A stretch of DNA of 58,222 nt from Zygnema cylindricum (taxonomy: Eukaryota; Streptophyta; Zygnematophyceae; Zygnematales; Zygnemataceae). The notes under the pieces were generated by a model. The model was not told the origin of the DNA. It did not search any database and saw only the letters and a program-made list of their open reading frames with translations. Each line of letters starts with the position of its first letter. Position 1 is the first letter of the stretch. The translations under genes and the position numbers were made by a program. The DNA lies in NCBI GenBank assembly GCA_037447655.1, contig JBBHKE010000395.1:1-58222 (forward strand). Direction: 5' to 3'. This document shows, in pieces, positions 6,902 through 58,222 of the stretch.

Positions 6902-7568
6902 GTCAATGACTTAGCAAAGAAAGATATCATCCTGGTCAACACTTAGTTGTCATGGATGAAGGGAAGTCATTTGACCCCTTGAAATATACAAAGAAGATAA
7001 AGATCAGATTTGAGTCCGAAAGTGAGGAGAACTCAGTCGTTCCCGAAAAAGACATGAGTGAAACTGTGATTACAGATTCAGGGGAGATCGAAGATACAGG
7101 AGACTCACCGGAAACCTCACATACTCCTATGGACTTCGAGGAGGTGGAAGAAGCGGGACAAGGTACGGTTTTTATGGACAGGGGAGCCGATGAGACAGTG
7201 AGAAGAAATCCAAGACTTCCATCCATTCCAGCTTCGGAGTTTGAGGGAGGAAGGAGGAGCAGCAAAAGGATACAGGAAAAACAAGCTGCCCATAAGGTAA
7301 CTAAGCTATCTCACCCAGATGAGCCTCAGTCTTACTTAGAGGCAGTGAATAGTCCAGAGAAAGAAAGATGGATTAGAGCCATAAATGATGAGATGGCTTC
7401 TATCATGGAAGCAAATACTTGGGAACTAGCGGATTGCCCTCCAGACAGAAAACCTACTGGATGTAAATGGGTATTTAAACTAAAACTGAACCCAGATAAT
7501 ACAATTGAGAGGTATAAGGCTCGATTGGTAGCGAAGGGGTTCACCCAAAAAGAGGGGATTGACTATGA
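6902..7568 (+). pseudogene. Copia C1 connector and reverse transcriptase N-terminus
   Basis: An acidic connector (MDEGKSFDPLKYTKK..., about 6952-7240) leads into the start of the copia reverse transcriptase: [40 protein letters not shown] and [14 protein letters not shown]. The frame is open but is cut precisely at 7568, where the miniature LTR element begins, so the palm domain with YVDD is missing. The lost part does not resume on the other side of that element. Confidence 0.85.
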
Positions 7569-7796
7569 TGTTAGATTTCTTAGAAATCCGGGATTCGGCA
7601 TGTCCCACACTTGGGAAAATTGAGCCGGCGAGGGTTCGAACCTGGGACCTTTCACTTCAGCTGCGAACGCACTACCACTGTGCCACCAGCTCGATGTTGA
7701 GACTGGCGGGTCCGTACCCATTTATTACGGGCGGCTCGAGTATGGATATTTCCATATTCTACCCGTATTGGACCGGCTTCACGTGCCAATCCAACA
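7569..7796 (-). repeat. TRIM 3' LTR
   Basis: This 228-bp LTR is downstream in the minus-strand sense. It is nearly identical to 7854-8081 and contains a second, slightly mutated tRNA-like sequence at 7622-7692. Differences from its partner include one broken T-stem pair and a changed anticodon loop. Confidence 0.9.
7622..7692 (-). tRNA. tRNA-like sequence in TRIM 3' LTR
   Basis: This is the partner of the cloverleaf at 7907-7977. The acceptor stem, the D-arm (GCAC/GTGC) and the exact box A TGGCACAGTGG and box B GGTTCGAACC are kept. The T-stem has one mismatch (CCTCG instead of CCTGG on the 3' side). The anticodon loop reads AGCTGAA (CTG in the anticodon place). A TTTT run lies just downstream. 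It is probably not a translating tRNA, but its polymerase III promoter signals are intact. Confidence 0.7.
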
Positions 7797-7805
7797 CCCC
7801 CCCTC
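7797..7805 (-). other. Polypurine tract of the TRIM
   Basis: On the minus strand GTGAGGGGGGG lies directly against the TGTTG start of the 3' LTR. That is the position and composition of the primer for plus-strand DNA synthesis. Confidence 0.75.
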
Positions 7806-7838
7806 ACGGGAAAGCCGGTCAAACCATCCGCAATCCCG

Positions 7839-7853
7839 CTGGCTCTGATACCA
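7839..7853 (-). other. Primer-binding site, initiator-Met tRNA 3' end
   Basis: The minus strand reads TGGTATCAGAGCCAG directly after the AACA end of the 5' LTR. It is complementary over 15 bases to the 3' end of plant initiator methionine tRNA (...CTGGCTCTGATACCA, from memory). It fixes the orientation of the element. Confidence 0.9.
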
Positions 7854-8081
7854 TGTTAGATTTCCTAGAAATCCGGGATTCGGCATGTCCCACACTTGGG
7901 AAAATTGAGCCGGCCAGGGTTCGAACCTGGGACCTTTCACTTCACTTGCGAACGCACTACCACTGTGCCACCAGCTCGATGTTGAGACTGGCGAGTCCGT
8001 ACCCATTTATTACGGGCGGCTCGAGTATGGATATTTCCATATTCTACCCGTATTGGACCGGCTTCACGTGCCAATCCAACA
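7854..8081 (-). repeat. TRIM 5' LTR
   Basis: This 228-bp LTR is upstream in the minus-strand sense. It starts TGTTGGATTGG at 8081 and ends CTAACA at 7854, directly before the primer-binding site. It contains the better preserved tRNA cloverleaf (7907-7977). Confidence 0.9.
7907..7977 (-). tRNA. Complete tRNA-like cloverleaf in TRIM 5' LTR
   Basis: The 71-nt minus-strand sequence folds fully. The 7-bp acceptor stem is GAGCTGG/CCGGCTC with one G-U pair. The D-arm is GCAC/GTGC with loop AGTGGTA. The anticodon stem is TTCGC/GTGAA with loop AAGTGAA. The variable loop has 5 nt, and the T-arm is CCAGG/CCTGG with loop TTCGAAC. Box A is TGGCACAGTGG and box B is GGTTCGAACCC, both exact consensus. A TTTT terminator-like run follows three bases later. 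The anticodon place reads GTG (His), but the base before it is A rather than the universal T33, so aminoacylation or decoding is doubtful. Its likely role is as an internal polymerase III promoter. Confidence 0.85.
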
Positions 8082-9445
8082 AAATGGACCCGAATGAATA
8101 TGAGTTTAAGTGTCTGGAAGGAAGAATGCACCGTTCGGGATCGTGGAAATCCCGAAGGAACCAAAGTGGTGGTTCCTTTGGATTTATGGAACCGGGGAAA
8201 AACAAATGTTCATTTTTCTGGCTGTTACCCAGTGTATTCTACATCCTCTCCAGCGGAACTGTTTGATAGTTCTAAAGATATCGCAGAGGATATCTAGCAA
8301 TTCTCGGTTTCCAAGCGGTGGGAAAGGGAATACACAAATAGATTATTGCAGGTAACAAAACTTTGGCAGAGAGTAGATCAAGCATTCTCAGCCTTGTTAT
8401 TATTACCGAAAACAGATTCGATAACCCGGTCAGATGTTTTCCCAACCAAGACTGGTAACGAGGACTTCAATCGACAAGTGGTGTCATTGATTGTCCCCGA
8501 CACCGGACTTCGGATTTTATCTTTATTTTCCGGAATCATTTCCGATCTGGAAGCAGTTTTGAAAGCAGGATATCGCGTAGAGTCATATACACCAGTGGAG
8601 ATTTCACCGGAAGCACGAGCTGTCACCGAACATCGCCTTCATCAGCTGCACCGCCTATATCCTCAGCTGCTTCTAGTGTCTTCCATTTCCAAAGTTCACT
8701 GGAGTCTTCCCCTGAACGTGGATAACATTATGGCACCCCATTTAGCAAGTCTGGGCAGAATAGATCTGGTTGAGGCAGGATGGCCTTGTCAAGGATACTC
8801 CCTCGCAGGACAAGGAAAAGGGCATCAAGATCGCAGGAGTGGTACCTTTTACCGAATGATTACATTAATATCATGGATTCAACTGCTCCAGTACATACCA
8901 GTGGGGTACATCCTGGAGAACGTCCACCCGGGGGATGATAAACGAAAACAGGTTGCAGACAACTGGAAACAAGTAACCCGGACTTTGGGAGCTCTTTTGG
9001 TTTTTGACGATGCTCAGATGGGATCTCGAGCAACCAGACTCCGAGCATATAAGACCAATATGATCCTGCTTCTAGTCCTCCAGCAACTGTTAGAGAAACA
9101 GACCCCGAACTTCAGACTTTAGTACAACAAATACTTGGGGAAGGGAGAATACCACACCTGTAACCAAACAGGATCGTCCTCCTTTCTTCCGATGCAACAC
9201 ACCCGGATCTCCTCGCCGAGCCATCCCCACGCTGGTCTCTTTTCCTCACAGTCACGCCTACAGAAAAGGAGCAGCTGGGATGATTTTTGACACTAAGGCA
9301 TGAATTTGGACGACACCAACAATTTCGGAACCAGAACAAGCCATGGGATTCCATTCGGGAACCACGGCCGCACAATGTATTTTAAACCAGCAAAGGTGTA
9401 GCTTAATCGGCAGAGCATGGATTTGAATGCCATTACATGGGTTAC
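8082..9445 (+). pseudogene. Cytosine-5 DNA methyltransferase domain of a gypsy element
   Basis: A frame open from 8094 runs to a stop at 9120-9122 with only one internal TAG (8295-8297). From 8346 it shows C5-methyltransferase motifs in canonical order. Motif I is ILSLFSGI (residues 57-64). The acidic cofactor residue is in PVEIS (E85). Motif IV is GWPCQGYS, with the catalytic Cys codon at 8787-8789. Motif VI is ILENV (189-193), and a motif VIII-like stretch is QMGSRATRLRAY (224-235). After a frameshift, EPEQAMGFHSGTTAA (about 9328-9372) and QQRCSLIGRA (about 9385-9415) fit motifs IX and X. The unrearranged order recalls DNMT3-type enzymes rather than plant DRM. No chromo, PWWP or ADD domain is seen. 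The gypsy reverse transcriptase follows directly. The domain would methylate DNA cytosines, but this copy is inactivated by its stops and frameshifts. Confidence 0.82.
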
Positions 9446-9892
9446 CAAACACGCTCTTGCATATTCCTGTCTCCATTCTCGAGATTCCCGCAAAAGTTAC
9501 CTTCAAGCTCCGAAATTGTTATCCATGCGAGCCACTTTGCAGTTTGAGGGTGGGAGACAAAGGAGAAAAATTCTAAACCGAAGAGTTCCTCCAATGGGGG
9601 GGAACAACAGTTTAGAAAGGGACAGCTTAGCGGAAGTTGTCAGCAGTAAAGTATTATCCAGAGGAGTAGAGGTGGATCCACAGATTGGGCTAGAATTCGA
9701 CATCAATCTCTGGGGGAGACCAGCGGAAGCCTGGGTTTCAATTGAGCCGGGAGAGATGGACTGGACTCTCGGGGAGCAGCTAACCCTCAGCAGAAAGAAG
9801 AGCTAACGGAACTCTTAGCCAAAAACAATCAGGTTTTCTCCTGGTGAGAAACAGATGTTGGAATATACAAAGGAACCCCCTTTCGTATTGAC
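9446..9892 (+). pseudogene. Linker between methyltransferase and reverse transcriptase
   Basis: An open frame at 9417-9806 starts inside motif X and continues through an unrecognised segment (...NSLERDSLAEVVSSKVLSRG...). It ends in the WTLGEQLTLSRKK stretch that in gypsy elements precedes reverse transcriptase. A frameshift and stops near 9805-9892 break the join, although the usual pre-RT motif (AKNNQVFSW) is readable at about 9820. Confidence 0.6.
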
Positions 9893-10812
9893 TTGATCGA
9901 CGAAACCACAACCGTTTGGCAGAAACAGTATCCTCTCAATTTCAAAGAGAAGGAGTTTATCAATGCAAAGGTCCAATCTTTCGTAGATGCCAGGTTGGCT
10001 CACGATAGCACCAGACTCCATGAATTTGCTTCCCCCATAGTTCTCCCTCCTAAGAAGGATTCATCTGGGAAAACTGTAGATTTCCGAATGTGTGGGGATA
10101 ACCGCATGCTGAACACGACCACCATTCTTGACCGTTATCCAATGCCAACCCCGGAAGAGATTTTCGAATCTCTTGCCGGAGCCAAAATCTTCTCCACAAT
10201 GGATATGAAGAATGGATTCCACCAGATTGCCATGGAACAAAAACATCGGGAGAGAACGACATTCTGGGCCGGATCCAGACTTTGTGAGTGAATTTATATG
10301 CCCTTCAGACGGAAGAATGCACCAGCCAAGTTCCAACGGGCCATGGACGAAGCGCTCCGAGGAATCGATTGTGCCCGGTGCTACATCGACGATGTGATAA
10401 TATTCTCGAAGACCTTTGAAGAACACCTGGAGCATATCCAGATCGTTCTCCGGGCCCTTCAAGCAGCGGGCTTGAAATGTCACCCGGGTAAGGGTATTTT
10501 TGGGGTGCAGAAAATTATTTACCTCGGACATGAGGTGACTCCCGGGACAGTGGGTCCCCATATGGTTAAGGTTGCAGCCCTTGACGCTCTTCCTCCCCCG
10601 CATGACATTTCTGCCTTGCGCACCTTTCTCGGCCTGGCCAATTACTATCGCATGTTTATTCCTGAGTTCAGTAGTCACGCCCAGCCCCTAAATAAGCTGT
10701 TGTGGAAAGATCAAGAATGGCTGTGGGCCGAGGAACAGCAGATCGCTTTCCAGTTCTTGAAAGATGCCTCGAAGCAACACCTAGTGCTCCGGACGCCTAA
10801 TCACGTGAGACC
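9893..10812 (+). pseudogene. Gypsy reverse transcriptase
   Basis: The frame carries the standard Ty3/gypsy RT motifs: FASPIVLPPKKD, DFRMCGDNRMLN, DRYPMPTPEEIFESLAGAKI, FSTMDMKNGFHQIAM, the catalytic YIDD (codons 10382-10393), IYLGHEVTPGTVGPHM, and LRTFLGLANYYRMFIPEFS. One TGA (10289-10291) interrupts it in place of a Trp codon. Otherwise the 9893 and 10298 frames are the same. It copies the element RNA into DNA. The YPMPTPEEIF/GAKIFST wording is of the type I associate with algal and early-plant gypsy elements rather than with the chromoviruses of flowering plants. Confidence 0.88.
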
Positions 10813-11343
10813 TTTCCTTCTTTACACTGATTGGAGCAGGTTTGGATTGGGAGCGGTTTTCGCCCAACTTGAGACGCCGGAGCCGAGTATGTGGTGGCTT
10901 ATGCCATCCGGAGCAACAACCGAGCTTAGGGGAATTATAGTAGTTACCATAGGGAGCTTTTGGCAGCTGTGTGGACCATCCTCCATTTCAGGCCTTATTT
11001 GTACAGGGTCCCTTTCACACTGATAACCGACCACCAACCCCTGAAATGGATCATGGAGAATAGTAAGTTGACCGGCAAACTCGCCAGATGGGTGCTTATC
11101 TTGCAGGAATATGATTTCAGCATCGTTCACCGGGCTGGGGAAATCCATGGGAATGCCGACAAACTTAGCCAAAACCCTGATCCTTCTACGTTGGATTCCA
11201 CCGGCGCTCGGCATGACGAAGACCCGAAAATCAGTTTGGGACTCATTCGAGCATCCTCCGCTTTAATTTGGCTTCCTCCATCAGGGGGGACACTGACCAC
11301 CTTTGCAGCCGATGTTGAGGGGCAGGCATCCATTGGAGCCTGA
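10813..11343 (+). pseudogene. Gypsy RNase H
   Basis: After RT the frame reads LLYTDWSRFGLGAVFAQ and then shifts near 10900. The second frame (10960-11343) carries LLAAVWTILHFRPYL, TDHQPLKWIM and HGNADKLSQ. The acidic residues in TDWS, in the REL preceding LAAVW, in TDH and in NAD match the RNase H active site. It would degrade the RNA strand of the RNA-DNA hybrid. A frameshift and the stop after 11343 inactivate it. Confidence 0.82.
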
Positions 11344-12060
11344 CGGAAATGCATCTGGAACGACTCTGAGGCTCTCCAATCCATCCAGCAGGGGTCGCCT
11401 CTTCCCCATTTGGCTAGAGGTCAATTGTCCCGAGTGCAGACCCGGATGGCGGCGTATGAATGGGACCGAGGTGTTCTCCTCTCAAAAATGGTTAGACGGT
11501 ACGAGTAAAGTGGTTCCTCCCCCCTATGACCGAGAAACACTGATTTCTAATCTCCATCGGCAATGTCGCCACTTCGGGCAAATGTGGACCACTTCCATGG
11601 TTACGGGCTCTTATTGGTGGCATGAGTTGCGGACTCAATTCAACCGAATTGTGCAAACTTGCTCCTCATGCGATCGCGTTAACGCAGCTTTTGACAAGAA
11701 AGGCTGGACTTAGCTTCATTCGCTGCCTACCTGAGGGATGTTTTATCGCTGGTCGTTGGATCTTTTGGGACCTCTTCCGACCAGCAGGCGGGGGAACCGT
11801 TTTGTGCTGTTCATGATAAAACATTTTTCCAAGTGGATCGAGTTGGTGGTTTTGCCTCGGAAGGAGTCCAAGGCAATTGCCGATGCCTTTTTGCAAAGGT
11901 TGCTGGCCCAATTCAGAGCGCTTGCGGAAGTACAGACCGACCAAGGTTCGAATTTGCCGAAGAATTTTCCAACCTCTTGGAAAAATGCTTGGTCGACCAT
12001 TGGCTGACCAGCCATGACCACCCTTAAGCCGAAGGTTTAGCCGAAAGGTGCGTACAGATA
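11344..12060 (+). pseudogene. Gypsy integrase: HHCC and first part of the DDE core
   Basis: The zinc-binding region is at about 11530-11690 (ISNLHRQCRHFGQ...TCSSCDRV, H-x4-H and C-x2-C). The catalytic core starts WSLDLLGPLP (Asp codon 11759-11761) and continues to VQTDQGSN (Asp 11939-11941). After stops at about 12025 and 12038, the Glu of AERCVQIVKRSL is at 12043-12045. Frameshifts near 11710 and 12000 break it, but all three catalytic residues survive. Confidence 0.83.
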
Positions 12061-12661
12061 GTGAAGCGGTCACTACGAAAATATGTCGTGGAAGAAGATT
12101 TGGGGGAGTGGAACAGAAAAGTGCCTTGGATAGCTATGGGTTACAGATTTAGCAAGCAGGCTTCTCTCCACTCCTATAGCCCTTATTTCATCCTATTTGG
12201 ACGACATCCCATCTTGCCCGGAGCGGCATCGGCCCAAGAGGTGGTCGTACCGAAGATGGATGACAAGGGGACAGTCGAAAAACTGATCGCCAAAAGGGCC
12301 AAGGTATTCCACCGAGATATGCCTCTCGCCATGGGCAATTTGCAGGCGGCTCAACACCGAGATCAATTGTGGTATTCTCAACGCCGGAGTGGGAATTATG
12401 TGCCCCAACAGCGACGATTTATGCCGGAAGACTTTGTATATCGAATGCAATAGAAGAAGGACACGTTCGATATTTTTGTCGGAAGAGTAATATTAAAAGT
12501 GGTCGAGGTGTCCAACAAAGGGGTTCTTACATTGGAGGGGAAAGATGGTCGACGAATTAAAGAGAATCAGATCAATGTGGCCCCTTGCAATCTTCGGGGA
12601 TTAGAAGACGAACCAGTTTTCCACCTAACTTTCTGTGCCGATCCTCCCTCTTGTTCATGAG
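12061..12661 (+). pseudogene. Gypsy integrase C-terminal half
   Basis: An open frame (12061-12453) continues with VPWIAMGYRFSKQASLHSYS, PYFILFGRHPILP and a His/Gln-rich helix. After a TAG at 12451-12453 the same region encodes VILKVVEVSNKGVLTLEGKD and INVAPCNLRGLEDE, then a stop near 12660. The small barrel ending in a VAPC motif is typical of gypsy integrases in green algae, from memory. No chromodomain follows. Confidence 0.75.
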
Positions 12662-12855
12662 CTTACAAACAGTCTTCCCAGCTGCACCATGTATTGATCT
12701 GCAATTAGTGTGGTCACTGTTGGCATTCAGCGTGTCTCCCCTCCTCTTGGGAGCCACACCCTATACCCTCCAACATCTGGTTTTGTGGGAACTGCGAATG
12801 GAGCGGGTAATTGTTTCCATATCTTAGTCACGGTTGACTAAGAGGGGGGGGGAAT
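12662..12855 (+). other. Gypsy 3' untranslated tail with polypurine tract
   Basis: No coding signal is visible. The segment ends in AGAGGGGGGGGG (12841-12852) followed by AAT and then TGGGATATC. That is the composition and position of a polypurine tract at the edge of a 3' LTR. Confidence 0.6.
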
Positions 12856-13140
12856 TGGGATATCAGCCCTATTACCGAGATCCTAATCCCTTCCCCCGGC
12901 CAGAGGGGGGGAGGAAGGAGGAGGGGATAACTTTTGCCTTCCCCTTTGCCCTCATCCCTATTCCCTGCTCATGCCTCTCTCCTATTTTTGCATGCATATC
13001 CATGGGAGGGATGCGGGCAGCAGTGGGCATGATCATTATTTTGGGAAGCCCTCACATTCGGAGTTTATTTGCAAGACTCCAATGCCGACAACTCTGGGCT
13101 GTGGGCCCTTCCCTCACGTTAATCAGGCACGCTCGACAAG
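12856..13140 (+). repeat. Probable truncated 3' LTR of the methyltransferase gypsy
   Basis: The stretch starts TGGGATATCAGCCC right after the polypurine tract and runs until a different LTR (TGTCAAGC...) begins at 13141. No second copy lies in the window, so the LTR identity rests on position only. Confidence 0.45.
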
Positions 13141-14032
13141 TGTCAAGCTCGTGTGTTTTTCAGGCATGCCTTTATATCACCAAGGGTTTCCGGGCCCTTT
13201 TTTCCCTGTACGGTCCTCAGAGTACGGAAGAGTGAGTACACCAAGCCGTACGAGATCCTTCTATTTCCTAAACTGAGCTGAATGCACTTTATTTCGCGCC
13301 AAACGGAGGTCGGATGAAAAAGTTCTACCGTCACAAAAATTGCAATTTCGTTATAGGGAGCCATTTGCCACCAGCCCCTATGGGGGGTACATTGTGGATT
13401 GCCACGTAACTTTTCGGATTTGCATTTATATTATGCTGGTAGTGGTCTGTAGAAATTTAGTTCAGTCTCAGCTGACTTTTCGTCCATTTATTACGTTAGG
13501 TCAAAATCTCGCAAGTTAGTATCATTTTTAAGATTTTGTTTTATAATTGTGGACCGAATAAATACTTCCGGCCGCGGATCTAGCCGCAGTCCAGAGCAAA
13601 ACTTTTTGCCCCGAGTGTAGTACTGATTAATTTGTCTTGTGTCCGTTCAATTACACTTGGTTTCCGCTCATTGGTTAATAGCGTAGCTTTGACTTTTGGA
13701 CTCGCAATTTGACAAACTTTGATGTATAACGCACTTGGGGTCGAAGGACACAGGTTGTTTTTCAGTACTGTCTCCTGTGAAAACCCTCTCAAATTCCAAC
13801 AAACCTTCTTTTGGAGAATCTTTGTGTTGTTTCGACTCTATAGCCATCTTGGTTTTCGATCTGTCTTTTGTGGAAGTCACAGTCCGGGCTGGTAGTTAGC
13901 ACTATCTTCCTTTTTGAGTGATTTTGGAATTTTTGTTTTTTGGAACCGAGAAGAGTCTGGTTGGTTCTGAGCTGCGGAAACCGAAGGTTGCGGGAGTACC
14001 ATACCTTTTTGACGATACTATTTGGAGAGGGG
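13141..14032 (+). repeat. Gypsy LTR copy A, 3' truncated
   Basis: This copy is homologous over its whole length to 14033-14935 and 56817-57720. The shared blocks TGTCAAGC (start), GGGGGGTACATTGTGGATTG, GGCCGCGGATCTAGC and ACCATACCTTTTTGACGA are in the same order. It lacks about 250 bp present at the end of the other two copies and stops exactly where copy B begins. Confidence 0.75.
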
Positions 14033-15181
14033 TGTCAAGCTCGAGTGCTTTTCAGGCAACCCTTTTATTTACCAAGGATTTCCGTACCTTTCCTACCCGT
14101 AGTGTTCTCAGACTTCGGAGAAGCAAGCACAACCAGCCACAAGGATTATAGAATGTCCTCTACGAAACAAGACGCACTTTATTTCGTGCCTAACGGAGGC
14201 CAGACGACAAAGTTCTATCTTCTGAAAGATCGTATTTCCGTTACCTAGCACTAGCTTCCACCAGCCCTAGTGGGGGGTACATTGTGGATTGCCACGTAGA
14301 CTTCCAGACTGTAATCTAGATTATGCTGTTAGCTATCTGTAGCAATTCAGTTCAGGTTCAGTTGACCAGTGAGTCATTTATTACATTAAGTCAAAGCTTG
14401 GCACTTCTGTGTCCTTTTAGTACTTTGTCTTAAAAGCTATGGAACAAATAATAACATCCGGCCGCGGATCTAGCCGTAGTCAAAGGTCCAACTTTTTGCC
14501 CCAAGTGTAGTACACATTATTTTGTCTTATGTTAGTTCCGTTGCCGTTGCTGGCCGCTCATTGGCTAATAGCGTAGGTTTGACTTTTGGACCAAAAACTG
14601 GACAAGCTTTTGCTGTATAAGGCACTTGGGTCCGAAGGAGACAGGTTGCTTTTCAGTAATGTCTCTTGTGAAACCCTCAAAAAATCCAACAAACTTACTT
14701 TTGGAAGAATCTTTGTTTTGTTTGACTCTATTGCCATCTTTGTTTTGGATCTGTCCATTGTGGGAATCATAGTTCGGGCTGGTAGTTGGCACTATCGTCC
14801 CTTTGGGTGATTTTTGGATCTTTCCGCTGCTTGAAACAGAGAAGAGTCCGGTCGGTTCCGAACTGCGGACACCGAGGGTTGAAGGAGTACCATACCTATT
14901 TACGCTACCATCGGAGAGAGTTCGCCCTTGTCTCTTTGTCCTCGTAAATTGTCAGGGTATGTTAAGCTTGCTTCGCCATCTTTTATATCTTCCATCTTAT
15001 ATTTTATTTCTGTGGTCAAGGTGATATTGTTAAATCTGAAACAGCCATTCCTATTTATTTTGTATGTGTCCACGTGGTAGTGCATTTGTGTATTCGCTTG
15101 TAGTTTCTTTTGCTTTGGCGTGAACTCCCCGGAGTAAAACTACCTATTCCTTGTATCGAAACAGTGGGTTTTGAGGGAACA
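14033..15181 (+). repeat. Gypsy LTR copy B (about 1.15 kb)
   Basis: The unit runs from TGTCAAGC to GGGTTTTGAGGGAACA (TGT...ACA termini) and matches copy C at 56817-57960 along its full length. The three copies share nothing to the left of TGTCAAGC, so the 5' boundary is firm. The 3' boundary is less certain because no primer-binding site is recognisable after it. A gag ORF begins about 150 bp downstream in both B and C, so B is the 5' LTR of that element. Confidence 0.7.
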
Positions 15182-15334
15182 AATGTTGTAGACTTCTCAT
15201 GAATAAGTACAGTACTGAAAAGCAACTGTCTCCCCCGGATTAGAGGGGATAGGAGTTTTTGACTTTATAAGCTCGCCTGGCGTAAGCGAGTTTTGTTTAC
15301 TTTCGTTTCTTATTCTTTCGAGACCTTTGTCATC

Positions 15335-16803
15335 ATGGGGGGAGGCAAAGCCTAAGATAAGAATCTCTCCGGTGCCTGGCCGCAAGAACGCGCGAATCAA
15401 GAAGCGGTGGCACCAGAAGAAGAGTCACAGGTTCCCAAAGAATCCGTCCCTTTCACCTCGTCGGCAAACATAGAGCGGTTTCTCCAAAGGATGATGCGTG
15501 AGCCTGTTAGAGTTGAGACTTCTCCAAAACCGCCCGAACCGCAAACTTCGCCCCCTTTTCCTCCTAGCCTCACTCCGGAACATTTTCCCTCCTTGGCGGA
15601 GGCCTTCATAACCTTTGCCGAGGAAAGAAAGGAGTCCAGAGCACAGGCTCAAGAAAGAAACCGAGTGTCACCCCAGGTCAGGCCAAAGAGGCAAGCTCAG
15701 CGAGAGCCCTTTTTCGGTCCTCTTCCAGAGGTCGGGCTTCACACCAGATCAAAGATTCCCAGGGCCGAAATTCAGATTGACCCTGCGGTTTTGACGAATC
15801 CCAGCCGCCCTGGTCGAAAGGAACTCCTTGCTCTTCATGATCTTCATGAACTGAAGGTGAAGCAGGAGCTGGTGGTGAGAGTGGCTCGGTCGGATCGACC
15901 CCGGGTGGTTAAACCATTGGGAGGGGTGCTGGAGATTCTAAGCAGCTCTTCAGAGAGTGGTTTCTCACAGTCCTTGCAGGAAAGGCCCAAGAGGGCTCCT
16001 CCTTCTCGCCCTCCTCCATCTTCTTCCCAAGACACTGCAGCTAGCCGACCGTCCCGGGTGCGCCCTGCTTCGAAGTCTCATAGGGGAGCAGGTGGCAGCG
16101 AGAGAGGGGCTCTAAAGCTGGTGAGGGGGAAGAAGTTTGACCACAGGGATAGTAAGGGTAGATTTGCACCTCTTCCCAAGGAAGAACCTTCCCGAACCCC
16201 GGCGCCAGTCTCCGTCGAGGGATCTTCCCCTATGGCACACCGTGTTCGCCCTGACGGAGGGTTTTGGCTACATGAATACAGTGACCCAGAGGTTTTGGAA
16301 ACAGAACCGGAAGAGTTTTTCGAGGGATGGTGGAGAGCCAAGCCTACAAATCCAGAAATTCTAGGAGCAGGGATAGCTGATCTGACCGGAGTAGTGGAAA
16401 GGGCTAAAGAACTAGTGGGAATTTTGAAATCTCAGGGCCAAGCTACGGTGGGGGCATGACCCGTCACCGTAGATTGGGAGGCTTTGGAGGAAGAACGGAG
16501 AAAGTTGTGGGAGCAAGAATTGAACCTCATCCGGGAAGCTCGGCGGAGGACAAGTGGGATCCTCAGTGGGCGGATTCCTCCAACATCGGTAGCGGAACCC
16601 CCGTCCGGAGCTCAACCCCAGGCTCCTTCCTCGGAGACTGGTCAGGAACCTCCTCTTGAGCAGAAAGTGGGGGCAAACACAAGATCTAATATTGGGGGTT
16701 TGGGTGCAGATTCACCGTCTGAATTCGCAGGAGCTCCACGGGGAGAGCCTATTTTTGTTTCGGTGGAGGTTTCTGAAGTTGTTGAGGCCTTAGTGGAGTT
16801 GCA
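15335..16803 (+). pseudogene. Gag-like first ORF of the LTR-B element
   Basis: An ATG at 15335 opens a frame that continues for about 490 codons with only two stops, TAA at 15353-15355 and TGA at 16457-16459. The protein is Pro/Ser/Arg/Glu-rich and disordered in its first 250 residues. It then has a more ordered part (GFWLHEYSDPEVLETEPEEF) and a charged helix (EEERRKLWEQELNLIREA). I recognise no named domain; gag is inferred from its place after the LTR. The same start is repeated at 58115 behind LTR copy C. The frame is cut at about 16804 by a copia protease sequence. Confidence 0.6.
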
Positions 16804-23639: not shown

Positions 23640-24549
23640 TACAAAAGTCACATACCTACTTAAGTATGATGAAAATATAAAGGGATATAGAGTTTATGAT
23701 CTTGGAAGATAACACATCATTCTAATAAAACACTGGGTAGTCATGGATAAAGGGAAGTCCATAAATCCCTTTAAATACACTAAACCAGTTAAGATTAGAA
23801 TGGAATCCGAAAATGAGTTAGATTCATATTCTTCTAACCGAACTCCGGTTCAGCCTGACCTTGCAAAGGAAGAGGAAAATCTGACCAAGAATAACCCTCT
23901 CTTGGAGTCACAGCTTGCGGTTGAAACCGAGGAAGAAAATGAGGAAAGACCGGAAATGGTCCATGAACGTTCGGAGATGGACTCCACGGATAGGGGAGAA
24001 GATGAAGCTATTTAGAGAAATCCGAGATAACCCTCCATTCCAGCATCAGAGGTTGAAGGAGGAAGGAGAAGCAACAAGATACTTCAAGAGAGACAAGTGA
24101 ACAACAAGGTAATTAAGCTCTCACATTTGAGCGAACCCCAGACATACTCAGAGGCAATTAATAGTCCAAAAAGTAGTAGTGGGGTGACAGCCAATAATGA
24201 TGAGGTGGCTTCCATTATGGAAGCAAACACATGGGAGTTGGTGGATTGTCCTCCTGACAAAATGCCGATAAGATGCAAGTGGGTATTTAAGGTTAAACTC
24301 AATCCGGATAACACTATCAAGAGATACAAGGCAAGATTAGTGGCAAAGGGGTTCACACAAAAGGAGGGAATTGATTATGAGGAGACTTTCGCTCCGGTTG
24401 TTAGATTTAATTCCGTCCAGATTCTACTTAGGCTAGCGGCAGCGAAAGACATGGAAGTGCACCAGATGGACATCAAAACCGCTTTCTTACACGGAGAATT
24501 ACACGAAAAGATTTTCATGCGACAACAAGAAGGATTTGTGGAGAAATGA
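23640..24549 (+). pseudogene. Copia C3: integrase tail, connector, RT N-half
   Basis: The fragment starts in the integrase tail ([13 protein letters not shown]), then the connector MDKGKSINPFKYTKPVKIRM and an acidic spacer with stops at 24013-24015 and about 24028. RT begins with [20 protein letters not shown] and runs through [20 protein letters not shown] and HQMDIKTAFLHGELHEKIFM to a TGA at 24547-24549. It is joined in frame with the next segment. Confidence 0.85.
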
Positions 24550-31560: not shown

Positions 31561-31722
31561 CAGCAAAACAAGTGGCGCCGAGCTGTCGGATGAACCGGAA
31601 GAAAAATAAAAAATTGTGTAAAGAATTGTCGGTCTTTCTGAAGGAAAGTAGTGAGGGCACACCCTTTCATTCGGTACGGACACACAAAATTCTAACTGCT
31701 GTGGCAAGTACAGAGTGCAGTA

Positions 31723-31939
31723 CACCGCCAATCGCTATTAGCGTGTACGTTTGATTAGCGTATACTATTATTTAGCGTGGTGTACGCTAATTGGGAATTT
31801 GGAAATTTTGGAAGAAATCGATTACTCTAATTAGGAATTAGGGCTTTTTTTAAATAGTGTGGATAATTCTATTTGAGAATAAAAACAAAAAAAAGCGGGA
31901 CGGGATTAGCGTACACAACGCTAATAGCGATTGGCGGTG
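31723..31939. mobile_element. M1 element c (217 bp)
   Basis: The ends CACCGCCAATCGCTATTAGC and GCTAATAGCGATTGGCGGTG are perfect inverted repeats, flanked by TA. The interior has CGCTAATTGGGAATTTGGAA and AATTCTATTTGAGAATAA blocks shared with copies d, f and i. Confidence 0.88.
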
Positions 31940-31946
31940 TACACTA

Positions 31947-32161
31947 CACCGCCATTCGCTATTAGCGTAGAAGTTTCTTTAGCGTATATGAACAAATAGC
32001 GTGGTTTACGCTAATTGGGAATTTGGAAATTTTCGAATAAATCGTTTACTCTAATTAGGAATTAGGATTTTTTTAAATAGTATGGGTAATTCTATTTGAG
32101 AATAAAAAAAAAAAAAACGGGGCGGGATTAGCATACACAACGCTAATAGCGATTGGCGGTG
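31947..32161. mobile_element. M1 element d (215 bp)
   Basis: This element has the same ends and interior as copy c, from which it is separated by only a few bases (TACACTA). TA flanks both ends. One mismatch in the left end (CCATTC). Confidence 0.88.
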
Positions 32162-32168
32162 TACAGTA

Positions 32169-32367
32169 CACCTTGAATCGTTATTAGCGTATAGAAATTA
32201 TTAGTGTAAAGAAAAAATTAGCGTCATTCATTCTAATTTAGTGCTAGGAGACGTGGCAGATTATGGTCCACTTCCTTAAATAGTGTAGTTTATTATATTT
32301 AAGGTATCAATGTCAGAATTTTCGGGTGCCGATATAGCGTACATAAGGCTAATAACGATTCATGGTG
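32169..32367. mobile_element. M1 element e (about 199 bp), variant ends
   Basis: CACCTTGAATCGTTATTAGC and GCTAATAACGATTCATGGTG are inverted termini of a variant subfamily, placed five bases after copy d. The three elements c, d and e therefore form a head-to-tail cluster. Confidence 0.75.
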
Positions 32368-33147: not shown

Positions 33148-33632
33148 GTGTTGTGTATCGGCAAAAAAATTATCGCGATTTAACCGATACCAATAGTTAT
33201 CTGTTATCGAACGGTGAGGGATACCGATATACCGCTCCGAGACCAACAATTTCCTTATCGGCGATAAGTAGAAAATAATATAGTACGCTATATAATAGTA
33301 CTTTATAGTGATTGTATTATATTTTTGACTGTATATAGCGTGGCATGCCACGTATGACATTCTGTTCCGTACTTCTGTATAACGGAAGTTTAGCACGGAC
33401 AGTCATCCGTATAGCTGCAAAAAAAAAACCGTACAATTATCGCCGATAGTTATCGGTACCGGTGTTATCGCGATAAAAACCGATATTCAGTGTTATCGGG
33501 ATAAAAAACCGATAATGTCGGTTTTTTACCGCGATAACACCGGTGCCGATATATCGTGCCAATATGTCAATTATCACTAAACCAAAAAAAGGGACACTGG
33601 TTATCAGCAAAAACCCTACCGATACAAAACAC
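33148..33632. mobile_element. M2 element (485 bp)
   Basis: GTGTTGTGTATCGG and CCGATACAAAACAC termini are flanked by TA. Positions 33430-33560 hold an inverted run of TATCG/CGATA motifs (TTATCGCGATAA, GGTACCGGTG, CACCGGTGCC) that can fold on itself. Confidence 0.8.
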
Positions 33633-36575: not shown

Positions 36576-36577
36576 TA

Positions 36578-36793
36578 CACCGCCAATCGCTATTAGCGTT
36601 GTGTACGCTAATCCCGTCCCGCTTTATTTATTTTTTATTCTCAAATAGAATTATCCACACTATTTAAATAAAACCCTAATTCCTTATTAGAGTAATCGAT
36701 TTCTTCCAAAATTTCCAAATTCCTAATTAGCGTAAACCACGCTAATTATTCATATACGATAAAGAAACTCTACGCTAATAGCGATTGGCGGTG
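36578..36793. mobile_element. M1 element f (216 bp)
   Basis: Perfect inverted ends CACCGCCAATCGCTATTAGC / GCTAATAGCGATTGGCGGTG are flanked by TA. The interior is the reverse complement of copies c, d and i. Confidence 0.88.
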
Positions 36794-36997
36794 TACTGGA
36801 ACGAGACGTGAATAACCACAAAGCAGCATATAAGTCGTACTGTACTTTTTAGTAATGGTTACAATCGTACGATATTCGAACCTCAGAAAATTTGTTTACC
36901 TTTTTCGTAAAGCCTGACAGCTGGTAGACTAAGCGCATTATTCTATTCTTTTGTACTTTTCGAGAAATGAACTGACAGTACAATGTAATGTGCAGTA

Positions 36998-43429: not shown

Positions 43430-45230
43430 GAGCATCCCATAAGTGGCATCACTCCAAGTGGTGACATCAATATTACCCTTCCCAAAATGCAACCACAAAT
43501 CTCTCGTTCTTATCAAGTACCGCATTACCCAGTTGGGTGCTTCTCAATCTTTTTTAATAACATCATTCAAACACCCACTTAATATTCCTACAAGAGCCGC
43601 TATATTGGGCCAAGTACGGTTCATAAAATAGATCAAGCTACCGACAACTTGTTTGTACGCAATATTTCACATAAACTTTCTTTCTTCAGGTCCTAACTGA
43701 TCATCTAAGACAAAAACTCCCACTTTAAAATTCCCCTCATTTCCCTTATTTAAATACATTCGAGTCATACAACTATTTGCTTTATCCATTTGAATTTTTT
43801 CAAGCATGTTTTGGATTGCCTTCTTTTAAGTTAGTCTTATTATTTTCTTCTCTCTATCCCTCTCCATTTGAATTCCCAAAATATATTTTGCTTCCCTTAA
43901 ATTCTTGATTTCAAATCTAATCTTTAGATCCCTTTTCAATCTATTAAATTTCTCAATTGATTTACTTAAAAAAAGCAAACCATCAACATAGATTGCAATG
44001 AAAATTATACCTTCTTCAACCTCAAATAGATAGATGTAATGATCCGAGCTGATTTGGACATATCCGAAATTTTTCAAAAACTCGTCCAGGTTTTTATTCC
44101 ATTGGCGCGAAGCTTGCTTCAATCCATAAAGGGACTTTATCCATCTGCACATCTTGCTTTCTTCTCCTTTTTCCACAAACCCTTCCGGATGTAGCATGAA
44201 GATCTCTTCTTCGAATTCTCCGTGCAAAAAAGTTATTTTGATGTCCATCTAGGGCACTTCCATGTCTTCCGCTGCCGCCAAGCTAAGTAGAATTCGGATT
44301 GAGGGAAATCTAACAATCGGAGCGAAGGTCTCCTCATAATCGATTCCTTCCTTTTGCGTGAACCATTTGGCCACTAATCTTGCTTTGTACCGCTCGATAG
44401 TGTTTTCTGGATTGGGTTTTAGCTTGAATACCCACTTGCATCCAATCGGTTTTTTGTTTGGTGGGCAGTCCACCAGCTCCCATGTATTTCCTTCCATAAT
44501 GGAAGCCATTTCATCATTAATAGTTGTTATCCATCTACTCTTTTCCGGACTATTAATCGCTTTCGAATAAATTTGAGGTTCAGACTTCCACTTAGTTACC
44601 TTATTATTGACTTCTCTCTCTTGAAGTCTCTTGCTACTTTTTCCTCGTTCAAAATCTGATGTTGAAATAGAAGGTAGTCTTGGAATTCTCCGAATAGTGT
44701 CATCTCCTCCCCTATCCATGGAGTCCATCTCGGGTCTTTCATTTTCCTCTTCCTTTGGATAGACTAGTGATTGTGACTCCAAAAGTGAGTCACTCTCGGT
44801 TAGAGCTTTCCATGCATCTGCAACGTCTGGTTGAACCGAAGTTGTGTTAAAAGAATCCGAATCTAACTCATTTTCGGAGTCAATTCTAATTCTGACCAGT
44901 TTAGTGTACTTAAAGGGATCTACTGACTTTCCTTCATCCATAAATACCAAGTGTTTAACTAGGATGATATCTTCTTTCCCAAGATCATAAACTCTATATC
45001 CCTTTACATTTTCATCATATCAAAGTAAGTACCCCGACTTTCCTCTCGCATCTAACTTCTAATCAGATTTTTCTGCACTTAGACTAAAAACTTGACTTCT
45101 GAACACTTTTTAAGTGTTTCTCCCGGTCCATCTTTCATAGGGTGTTTGATCTTTCACCGCCGAGGTGAGGACTTTATTCTTAAGATAATTAGCTCAGCTC
45201 ATTGCTTGTAATAAAGTGCAACCTTGTCTG
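43430..45230 (-). pseudogene. Copia C4: integrase tail to RNase H start (minus strand)
   Basis: Read on the minus strand from about 45230, a frame-shifted integrase tail ([22 protein letters not shown]) is followed by the connector [20 protein letters not shown] and RT. The RT shows [57 protein letters not shown] and SLYGLKQASRQWNKNLDEFL. The active site reads AIYVDGLLFLS, so the second catalytic Asp of YVDD is changed to Gly. A decayed RNase H start (VTTWSDATYG) ends at about 43430. One TAG at 44246-44248 splits the frame. Confidence 0.85.
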
Positions 45231-48729: not shown

Positions 48730-49837
48730 GTGTTGTGTATCGGTAAAAAACTTATCGCGATAACACCGATACTGATAATTATTGGTTATCGAACGGTCAG
48801 AGGTCCCGATATATCGGTTAGAGACCAACAAATTCCATATCGGCGATAACTTACAAAATATATAGTATGCATACTATAGTACTCTATAATATACTGTTTT
48901 ACATTATTTACATTATATAGCGTGGAATGCTTCGTATAATAATCTGTTCCGTATCTATTTAACTGATAATTATTACGGACAGCGCAGCACGTAAACGTAG
49001 ACAAATTTAAAATAATACTTTATAGTTCTAAAACTATACTACTGAAACAAAAAAATTAAATACATTGTAAAATTCGAGAATCAAACTTTTTAAGAATGAA
49101 AACGAACAGACAAACAAAGCAGACTGAACCGTCGATGTCCAATTCGTATGGATTTTAATTTTTTTACGAAAACTACGTAGTATTTGTCTTTTTTATACTT
49201 TTTCGTAAAATTTGTGTAAATTTCGCTGTACGGCCATGTACAAAAACGTACGAAAAGCGTAATCTTAGAAAATCCTTAAAAATCTTAAAAAGTACGGAAA
49301 TTTATCAGAAATGTACGAAATTGTATGAAAGTGTACCTTAAAAAACCTTATAGTACAGAATATCTACGGCAGCCGTACTGAAATATAAATGAACGTACGG
49401 CAATGTACCTTGGAAACCCTAAAATATCTCGTAAATAGCCCTAAAATGCACGAACATCGACGGACATTGTACGTAATTGTAAAAATATTGTATGGGTACA
49501 AAGTAAGGTACGCATTTTATTTACTTTTCATCATCGTTTGATGCGTACATAGTATTCGTTAGTTTATACCCTGTGTAATATGCGCACGGGACATTTATGG
49601 ACTGAACACATTTGTGAGACTGTCGCCATTTACAGCCACCATATTTATCTGTACGGTCCGAACAATTATCGCCGATAGTTATCGATATCGGTATTATCGC
49701 CGATAATAACTGATAAATATCGGTTATTTATCGGCGACAACACCGATGGCGATATTTTCGTACCAATATATCGATTATCGGGTACCCGAAAAAAGGTCCA
49801 TATCGGTTATCGGCAAATCCTTACCGATACACAACAC
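48730..49837. mobile_element. M2 element (1108 bp)
   Basis: GTGTTGTGTATCGG and CCGATACACAACAC are perfect inverted termini. TATCG motifs dominate the outer 130-200 bp on both sides. The centre (49150-49500) is GTAC-rich and non-coding. The right terminus abuts M1-i, with one TA between them. Confidence 0.8.
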
Positions 49838-49839
49838 TA

Positions 49840-50059
49840 CACCGCCAATCGCTATTAGCGTAGAAGTTTCTTTAGCGTATACGAATAATTAGCGTGGTTT
49901 ACGCTAATTGGGAATTTGGAAATTTTCGAAGAAATCGATTACTCTAATTAGGAATTAGGATTTTTTTTTTAAATAGTGTGGATAATTCTATTTGAGAATA
50001 TATAAAAATATAAAGCGGGACGGGATTAGCGTACACAACGCTAATAGCGATTGGCGGTG
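49840..50059. mobile_element. M1 element i (220 bp)
   Basis: CACCGCCAATCGCTATTAGC and GCTAATAGCGATTGGCGGTG are perfect inverted ends flanked by TA. The interior is close to copies c and d. It lies exactly at the M2 border, so it inserted into the TA next to, or duplicated by, M2. Confidence 0.88.
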
Positions 50060-50061
50060 TA

Positions 50062-56690: not shown

Positions 56691-56816
56691 TGTTGTTTTG
56701 GGAAAGCTTTAGTCCTCATTATGCCTCGAAATATGAGGAAGATTGAGATTTGGGACTTAGAATGTTTTTATCAGTAAGTCCGGTTCAATACGAACCAGAA
56801 TTGGAGTTACGATTAG
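56691..56816 (+). repeat. L2 LTR fragment
   Basis: TGTTGTTTTGGGAAAGCTTTAGTCCTC matches the LTR starting at 54714. It is interrupted at 56817 by gypsy LTR copy C. Confidence 0.6.
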
Positions 56817-57960
56817 TGTCAAGCCCATGTGCTTTACTGGCCCACCTTTATATTACCAAGGATTTCTGAGACCTTTTAACCTGTACGGTCATCCCTGTAC
56901 GGAAGAAAGAGTGTACCCAGTCAAACCAGGTTCTTGGATTTTCTCAAGTGAGCGGAACGCATTTTGTTTCGCGCCTAACGGAGGCCGAACGACCAAGTTA
57001 TACCGTCTCAAAGATTACTATCAGGTTACATGGAAACATTTGCCACTGGGGGGTACATTGTGGATTGCCACGTAACTTTTCCGATGTTCTTTTAGATTAT
57101 GCTGTCAGCCGTCAGTAGGAATTTAGTTCAGGCTCGGCCGAATTGTGTTCAATTAATTACCTTAGGTCTAAGTCTGGCAAGTTAGTGTCGTTTTCAAGAC
57201 TTTGTCTTATAACAGTGGAACAAATAATTACTTCCGGCCGCGGATCTAGCTGCAGTCCGGAGCAGAACTTTTTTCCCCGAGTGTAGTACGGATTATTTTG
57301 TCTTGTGTCAGCTCAATTACACTTGCTTGCCGCTCATAGATTATTAGCGTAGCTTTGACTTTTGGACTTTCAATTTGACAAACTTTGATGTATAAGGCAC
57401 TTGGGATTGAGGGAGACAGGTTGCTTTTCAGTACTGTCTTTTGTGAAAACCCTCAGAAATTCCAACAACCCTTCTTTTGGAGAATCTTTTTGTTGATGTA
57501 TCGACTCTATTGCCATCTTGGTTTTGGATCCGTCTTTTGTGAAAATCACAATCCGGGCGGGTTGTTGGCACTATCTTCCTTTTAAGGTGATTTTGGACTT
57601 TTTGCTGTTTGGAAACGAGAAAGTTCTGGTCAGTTTTGAGCTGCGGACACCAACGATTGCAGGAGTACCATACCTTTTTGACGATGTTATCGGGAGAGGG
57701 GTCATCTTTTTCTAATTTTCATCGTTGATTTCTTGGGAAAGTTGAGCTCGCTTTGCTACATTTCACATTTTCTATCTTTTATTCTCTTTTTCTGGGGCAA
57801 GGTGATATTGTTAAATCTGGAAAGCCAATCCTATTTATTTATATATATATCTACGTGGTAGTGCATTTGTGTCTTCATCTGGAGTTCTCTTTGCTTTGGA
57901 GTTCCTTTTCCTGAGTAAGTTGAAACCTCTTGGATCAGGACAGTGGGTTTTGAGGGAACA
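56817..57960 (+). repeat. Gypsy LTR copy C (1144 bp)
   Basis: This is a full-length match to LTR copy B (14033-15181), from TGTCAAGC to TTTTGAGGGAACA, with the same internal blocks (GGGGGGTACATTGTGGATTG, GGCCGCGGATCTAGC). It is the 5' LTR of an element whose gag starts at 58115. Confidence 0.75.
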
Positions 57961-58114
57961 AATGCAATAGACTTCCCGTAGACAAAGCACACTACTGAAA
58001 AGCACCCTTGTCTTCTCAGATTAGAGGGGATAGGAGCTTTAACTTTGGAAGCTCTCTTTTTGGAAGTGAGTTTTAGTGATATTCCACATTATTTCTCTAT
58101 TTCCCTTTGTCATC

Positions 58115-58222
58115 ATGGTGGGAGGAGAGACTCCGGATAATGGATCTGGAGAGCAGGGTTGACAAAAGAGGGCGGTACCGGAGAGACAGTCTCAAAGGTC
58201 CGAGGAGTCTGAACCCATGGAG
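58115..58222 (+). pseudogene. Start of gag-like ORF, window edge
   Basis: ATGGTGGGAGGAGAGACTCC aligns with the gag start at 15335 (same distance from the LTR, same CATCATGG context). A stop after about 15 codons suggests it is also broken. The rest lies beyond the window. Confidence 0.6.

Follow-up and report, generated by a model that had tools for sequence, protein, structure and literature searches.

Why does a retroelement of only 513 bp carry a tRNA-like sequence in each of its LTRs, and does this sequence behave as a tRNA, as a promoter or as a mere passenger? The question arises from a locus in a 58,222-nt stretch of DNA, the whole of which was analyzed and is referred to below as the window. 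A first-pass annotation had described this locus as a miniature LTR element with 228-bp LTRs, a 57-bp core, a primer-binding site (PBS) and a polypurine tract (PPT), and this architecture is confirmed by the direct repeats and by the reading of the core on the minus strand (Table 1). The LTR repeats start with TG and finish with CA, differ at 5 of 228 positions in the direct-repeat alignment, and enclose a core that, on the minus strand, begins with the PBS and ends with the G-rich PPT, both in a single consistent orientation. A correction concerns the orientation: as judged by the order of the PBS and the PPT, the minus strand is the sense strand of the element, which places the intact cloverleaf (7906-7977) in its 5' LTR.

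Table 1. Features of the element and of its LTRs, in coordinates of the window; 5' and 3' refer to the sense (minus) strand.
Feature	Position	Strand	Evidence or remark
Whole element	7569-8081	-	513 bp; sense strand from the LTR pair and the orientation of PBS and PPT
5' LTR	7854-8081	-	228 bp, TGTTGG...CTAACA; direct repeat, 97.8% identical to 3' LTR
3' LTR	7569-7796	-	228 bp; direct repeat of 5' LTR
Internal region between LTRs	7797-7853	-	57 bp
Primer-binding site TGGTATCAGAGCC	7841-7853	-	Directly after 5' LTR
Polypurine tract GAGGGGGGG	7797-7805	-	Directly before 3' LTR
tRNA-like sequence, 5' LTR	7906-7977	-	Rfam RF00005, 55.1 bits, E 3.5e-9; ARAGORN tRNA-His(gtg)
tRNA-like sequence, 3' LTR	7621-7692	-	Rfam RF00005, 45.6 bits, E 1.5e-6; ARAGORN tRNA-Gln(ctg)
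Box A TGGCACAGTGG	7960-7970 (5' LTR), 7675-7685 (3' LTR)	-	Motif scan, exact
Box B core GTTCGAACC	7918-7926 (5' LTR), 7633-7641 (3' LTR)	-	Motif scan
TTTT, 5' LTR	7901-7904	-	One base downstream of tRNA-like part
TTTT, 3' LTR	7616-7619	-	One base downstream of tRNA-like part
CAA, candidate Pol III start	7982-7984 (5' LTR), 7697-7699 (3' LTR)	-	-7 to -5 from tRNA-like part
TATA-like TAATAAAT, contains AATAAA	8005-8012 (5' LTR), 7720-7727 (3' LTR)	-	At -35
Hypothetical full-length Pol III RNA	7616-7983	-	368 nt, tRNA-like sequence as R at both ends; predicted from CAA and TTTT

The PBS is of the initiator tRNA-Met type. Its 12-mer TGGTATCAGAGC occurs exactly once in the window, where neither a second exact PBS nor an autonomous partner was identified, and the element itself, at 513 bp, has no room for genes. 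A repeat comparison found no further copies of the element within the window besides the two LTRs. Exact-pattern scans with strings from the LTR and the tRNA-like sequence gave 0 matches in prokaryotic contigs (two strings) and in viral contigs (three strings), collections that are not expected to contain the element, and blastn found no match in plasmid and phage collections, which, as prokaryotic and viral sets, are uninformative on the host genome.

Flanking the element, there is no 5-bp target-site duplication (TATGA on the left vs AAATG on the right). To the left lies a Copia reverse transcriptase (RT) gene (PF07727), and the homology to its relatives within the window stops exactly at 7568, the LTR edge, in all four relatives chosen for comparison. 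To the right, the sequence passes into a Gypsy-like region, not Copia, and in 8082-16000, tblastx detected no match to the continuation of the Copia sequence at E 1e-3, and blastn only matches of 11-23 bases (best E 0.009). Because the Copia homology ends exactly at the LTR and its continuation was not found in 8082-16000, the mismatched flanks rather likely stem from later recombination with another copy of the element's family. The rearranged flank would also account for the absence of the target-site duplication, and such an exchange, if it took place, would imply a family of two copies or more. A competing account, confined to the flanks, is that a normal insertion was followed by replacement of the original right flank through a deletion or rearrangement, or that the assembly joined two copies at this point. 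The presence of Copia on the left and of non-Copia sequence on the right is compatible with such events, and an assembly error across a repeat is conceivable in a repeat-rich window, but for a boundary that coincides with the LTR edge, an exchange within the repeat is more probable than a deletion, so that we regard this account as possible although doubtful. The age calculated from the LTR divergence (K2P 0.022, ~0.9-5.6 My at three assumed rates) was set aside because the LTRs may stem from different insertions.

As to the tRNA-like sequence, the covariance model that had been proposed as a check places both LTR copies above the gathering score of the Rfam tRNA model (29), and these matches are not due to chance; a relaxed Rfam scan (E up to 5) revealed no other tRNA match anywhere in the window. 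Under the bacterial code, ARAGORN found two tRNAs, both on the minus strand. The tRNA-like part measures 72 nt (LTR positions 105-176), rather than 71 nt as initially reported, and the claim of a complete cloverleaf in each LTR holds for the 5' LTR copy only: this copy forms 21 of the 21 cloverleaf pairs, with the loop AAGTGAA and GTG in the anticodon position, whereas the 3' LTR copy forms 20 of the 21, with a C-C mismatch in the T stem, the loop AGCTGAA and CTG in the anticodon position. The minimum-energy fold of the 3' LTR 72-mer is not a cloverleaf, and the folding energy of the 72-mers is ordinary (z -1.38, with 19 of 200 shuffles folding as well, and z -1.53, with 18 of 200). Thus, the tRNA-like identity is supported by the tRNA-specific sequence-and-structure score and not by the stability of the fold.

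U33 is nearly invariant in tRNAs. In both LTR copies, however, position 33 is occupied by A or G, and the anticodons are discordant, whereas a functional tRNA gene should have U33 and a consistent anticodon. The lack of U33, the different anticodons in the two LTRs and the broken T-stem pair in the 3' copy show that this is not a normal, functionally complete tRNA: the LTR sequence is tRNA-derived, yet it is not a usable translational tRNA. Being located in both LTRs, the tRNA-like part was, from what is known of LTR biology, most likely present already in the copy that transposed last. Compensatory changes in the arms were sought between the two LTR copies, and none was found, the only arm change being one uncompensated pair break. 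Self-priming, with the 3' end of the tRNA-like sequence pairing with the PBS, was considered and rejected: 7 of the 13 bases match, three of these contributed by the added CCA.

Among the signals expected of a Pol III promoter, box A is exact in both LTRs, as initially described. Box B, GGTTCGAACCC, which had been called exact as well, fits the consensus form GWTCRANNC but is one base off the stricter form GGTTCGANTCC. The TTTT after the tRNA-like sequence is found in both LTRs, and boxes A and B and the T4 run are all identical between the LTRs. The two T4 runs listed in Table 1 are the only ones in the 513 bp, and when the 5' LTR was shuffled 500 times, 18% of the resulting sequences contained a T4 run at any position. 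In Arabidopsis, CAA located up to 10 bases upstream acts as a start site of tRNA genes, and it is present in this position in 36-45% of the tRNA genes of angiosperms, a TATA motif in 22-32% and a downstream poly(T) in 67-72% (PMC11700998); a CAA within 10 bases upstream is, in any case, frequent by chance. Plant tRNA genes have A/T-rich upstream regions (PMC11700998), whereas the 50 bases upstream of the tRNA-like part contain only 46% A+T. The hypothetical 368-nt RNA is strongly structured (z -4.86, with none of 100 shuffles folding as well), with the caveat that the palindromic T arm is present twice in this RNA, and the 83-nt stretch from CAA to the first TTTT has an ordinary folding energy (z -0.96). 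Judging by the boxes, the TTTT and the other promoter-like motifs, Pol III transcription of the element appears likely, and its proposal in the first-pass annotation was a reasonable one.

Taken together, these features suggest that the element is probably a TRIM of the Helenus type (see below), with Pol III promoter activity supplied by the tRNA-like part. Under this scenario, Pol III, recruited via TFIIIC on boxes A and B, would start in the 5' LTR close to the CAA that precedes the tRNA-like part, pass the first TTTT in a fraction of the rounds, and end at the TTTT of the 3' LTR. In the resulting 368-nt RNA, the tRNA-like sequence would itself form the terminal repeat (R) at both ends. Reverse transcriptase and integrase would come from an autonomous LTR retrotransposon, possibly a Copia element, the RNA would be primed by the initiator tRNA-Met, and the cDNA would then be inserted. 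The tRNA-like part would thus have no role in translation but would act as a promoter and as the repeat for strand transfer. The LTR pair, the PBS and the PPT support the nature of the element as a TRIM, and several observations favor the promoter role. The lack of U33 and the different anticodons are to be expected of a promoter rather than of a tRNA; the tRNA-like part is present in both LTRs, in the sense orientation of the element and well above the Rfam threshold; and there are only two T4 runs, each located one base after the tRNA-like part. Furthermore, the CAA at -7 corresponds to a start site used in Arabidopsis (PMC11700998), and Helenus families display the same architecture, with conserved boxes A and B (PMC10886601). 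The TTTT directly after the tRNA-like part of the 5' LTR, the TATA-like sequence with AATAAA, the frequency of CAA by chance, the modest A+T content upstream, the absence of a target-site duplication and that of a second copy in the window count against this explanation.

The tRNA-like part could, alternatively, be a passenger that came from a tRNA-derived SINE or a tRNA gene in an ancestral LTR and retains little or no ability to recruit Pol III, with the genomic RNA produced by Pol II from the TATA-like box in U3. Pol II could indeed make this RNA given that U3 contains TAATAAAT with AATAAA, and a genomic RNA made by Pol III would be hampered by the T4 stop in the 5' LTR: a full-length transcript must read through it, and many transcripts should terminate there, at ~83 nt. 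The tRNA-like 72 bp also hold 3 of the 5 differences between the LTRs, one of these being the pair break, but this is no excess for 72 of 228 bp (P = 0.18). The identity of boxes A and B and of T4 in the two LTRs, and the retention of boxes A and B across wide distances in Helenus families (PMC10886601), argue against a passenger, and overall, we consider this origin of the pattern unlikely. A tandem duplication of a genuine tRNA gene or pseudogene that only resembles an LTR element, as might be suggested by the ARAGORN calls of both tRNAs, is extremely improbable in view of the TG...CA ends, the PBS and G-rich PPT that adjoin the repeats in one orientation, the lack of U33 and the discordant anticodons.

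The preferred interpretation, a TRIM with a Pol III promoter derived from a tRNA, has precedents. Kojima (2024; PMC10886601) gave the name Helenus to TRIMs that carry tRNA-derived sequence in the LTRs, and grouped them with Cassandra and Ajax as TRIMp3, a term proposed for TRIMs that carry a Pol III promoter, while stating that the Pol III function of Helenus is not validated. Helenus elements possess a PBS and a PPT, range from 311 to 1263 bp in size, and are reported from fungi, animals and one plant, Selaginella moellendorffii; in most families, the tRNA is described as unlikely to be functional, and the fungal and plant families show 5-bp target duplications (PMC10886601). The present element matches this description in being a TRIM shorter than 1 kb, with tRNA-derived sequence that includes boxes A and B in both LTRs and a PBS and PPT between them, and its 513 bp fall within the Helenus size range, but unlike the fungal and plant Helenus families, it lacks the 5-bp target duplication (PMC10886601). 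Helenus-1_SMo of Selaginella moellendorffii combines a 120-bp LTR with an 85-bp core, compared to 228 and 57 bp here (PMC10886601). The element is assigned to the Helenus type solely by the definition that Kojima states.

It follows that the parallel with Cassandra drawn in the first-pass annotation was a correct comparison but not a new one, tRNA-bearing TRIMs having been published as Helenus in 2024 (PMC10886601). Similar to Cassandra, the element is a non-autonomous TRIM with an LTR Pol III promoter (here a putative one) from a small-RNA gene and the same PBS, TGGTATCAGAGC (PMC7215508). The difference is that Cassandra carries 5S rRNA sequence, whereas the LTRs of the element carry the tRNA-like sequence; Rfam scans of the window found no 5S rRNA match, whether the gathering score or an E-value of 5 was taken as the limit. 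A conserved "super-hairpin" is described for whole Cassandra elements (PMC7215508). A review of December 2025 singles out Cassandra as exceptional among the LTR retrotransposons of plants for its use of Pol III, and does not mention Helenus (PMC12786077). In its tiny size and lack of genes, the element resembles SMART and other plant TRIMs (PMC10886601), and with tRNA-derived SINEs (SINE2), it shares the tRNA-like head and the internal Pol III promoter (PMC10886601). Unlike SINE2, it has LTRs, a PBS and a PPT, so that it would move by the LTR route and not by target-primed reverse transcription.

The term "tRNA" is absent from the main text of a survey of TRIMs in 48 plant genomes, so that no tRNA in LTRs is reported in that text (PMC4717578). 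The tRNA expansion in oomycetes is described as occurring in tandem arrays, not in LTRs (PMC9584435), and the text of a paper on Ectocarpus transposons contains no tRNA term (PMC12477816). Among the matches listed in a search of titles and abstracts, with preprints and most subscription papers outside its scope, none of the other titles or abstract starts named a plant TRIM with a tRNA in its LTRs and, within the same scope, PMC10886601 was the only one among transposon papers to deal with Helenus or TRIMp3. It is highly improbable that a tRNA mimic has here been put to a use that is new for LTR retrotransposons. We view the element as a further example of the kind described in 2024 and not as a new kind. 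Should the host be another plant, this clear example with a full cloverleaf in one LTR would widen the distribution of Helenus beyond Selaginella moellendorffii. The element also allows a test of how Pol III would pass the 5' LTR terminator to make genomic RNA. On the practical side, counts of tRNA genes are inflated by elements of this kind, as both LTR copies are annotated as tRNA genes by ARAGORN.

The window is rich in repeats and contains other mobile elements. The type of PBS and the appearance of the transposon content may point to a plant host, whereas protein searches with three neighboring ORFs indicated no particular taxon. The Copia integrase ORF yielded 57 matches, the best of which covered 65% of the query at 71% identity; Phytophthora fragariaefolia was among them at 47%. 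The plus-strand end of the LTR, TGTTAGATTTC (7569-7579), recurs in related Copia RT genes at 24399-24408 (+) and 44305-44315 (-), with 10 and 11 bases shared, respectively. These recurrences are located 18 bases past the end of the homology of those genes to the left flank, and may reflect either coincidence or the trace of a microhomology event.

The Gypsy-like region (8298-11023, plus strand) encompasses a C5 cytosine methyltransferase domain at 8298-9122 (PF00145, E 2.5e-8), upstream of the RT and RNase H domains. A protein search with the methyltransferase ORF found no relatives, and among solved structures, the ORF weakly matches C5 methyltransferases (best E 0.0096). Methyltransferase-bearing Gypsy elements are described in the charophyte Klebsormidium nitens (PMC5890265). 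For the Gypsy RT ORF, there were 32 matches, the best at 55%, including Zophobas morio (40%) and Rotaria (37%). Long related repeats with 73-82% identity, two of them arranged in tandem (13139-14033 and 14032-15345) and a third at 56815-58125, are perhaps the LTRs of the Gypsy-like element. A repeat of ~225 bp, with no Rfam match listed, is present in several copies (31715-32238, 36576-36798 and 49835-50061) that are 91-93% identical between these places. Finally, a self-complementary stretch of ~110 bp at 33444-33556, with sub-threshold matches to miRNA families (39 bits vs a gathering score of 116.6), is perhaps a palindromic MITE-like repeat.
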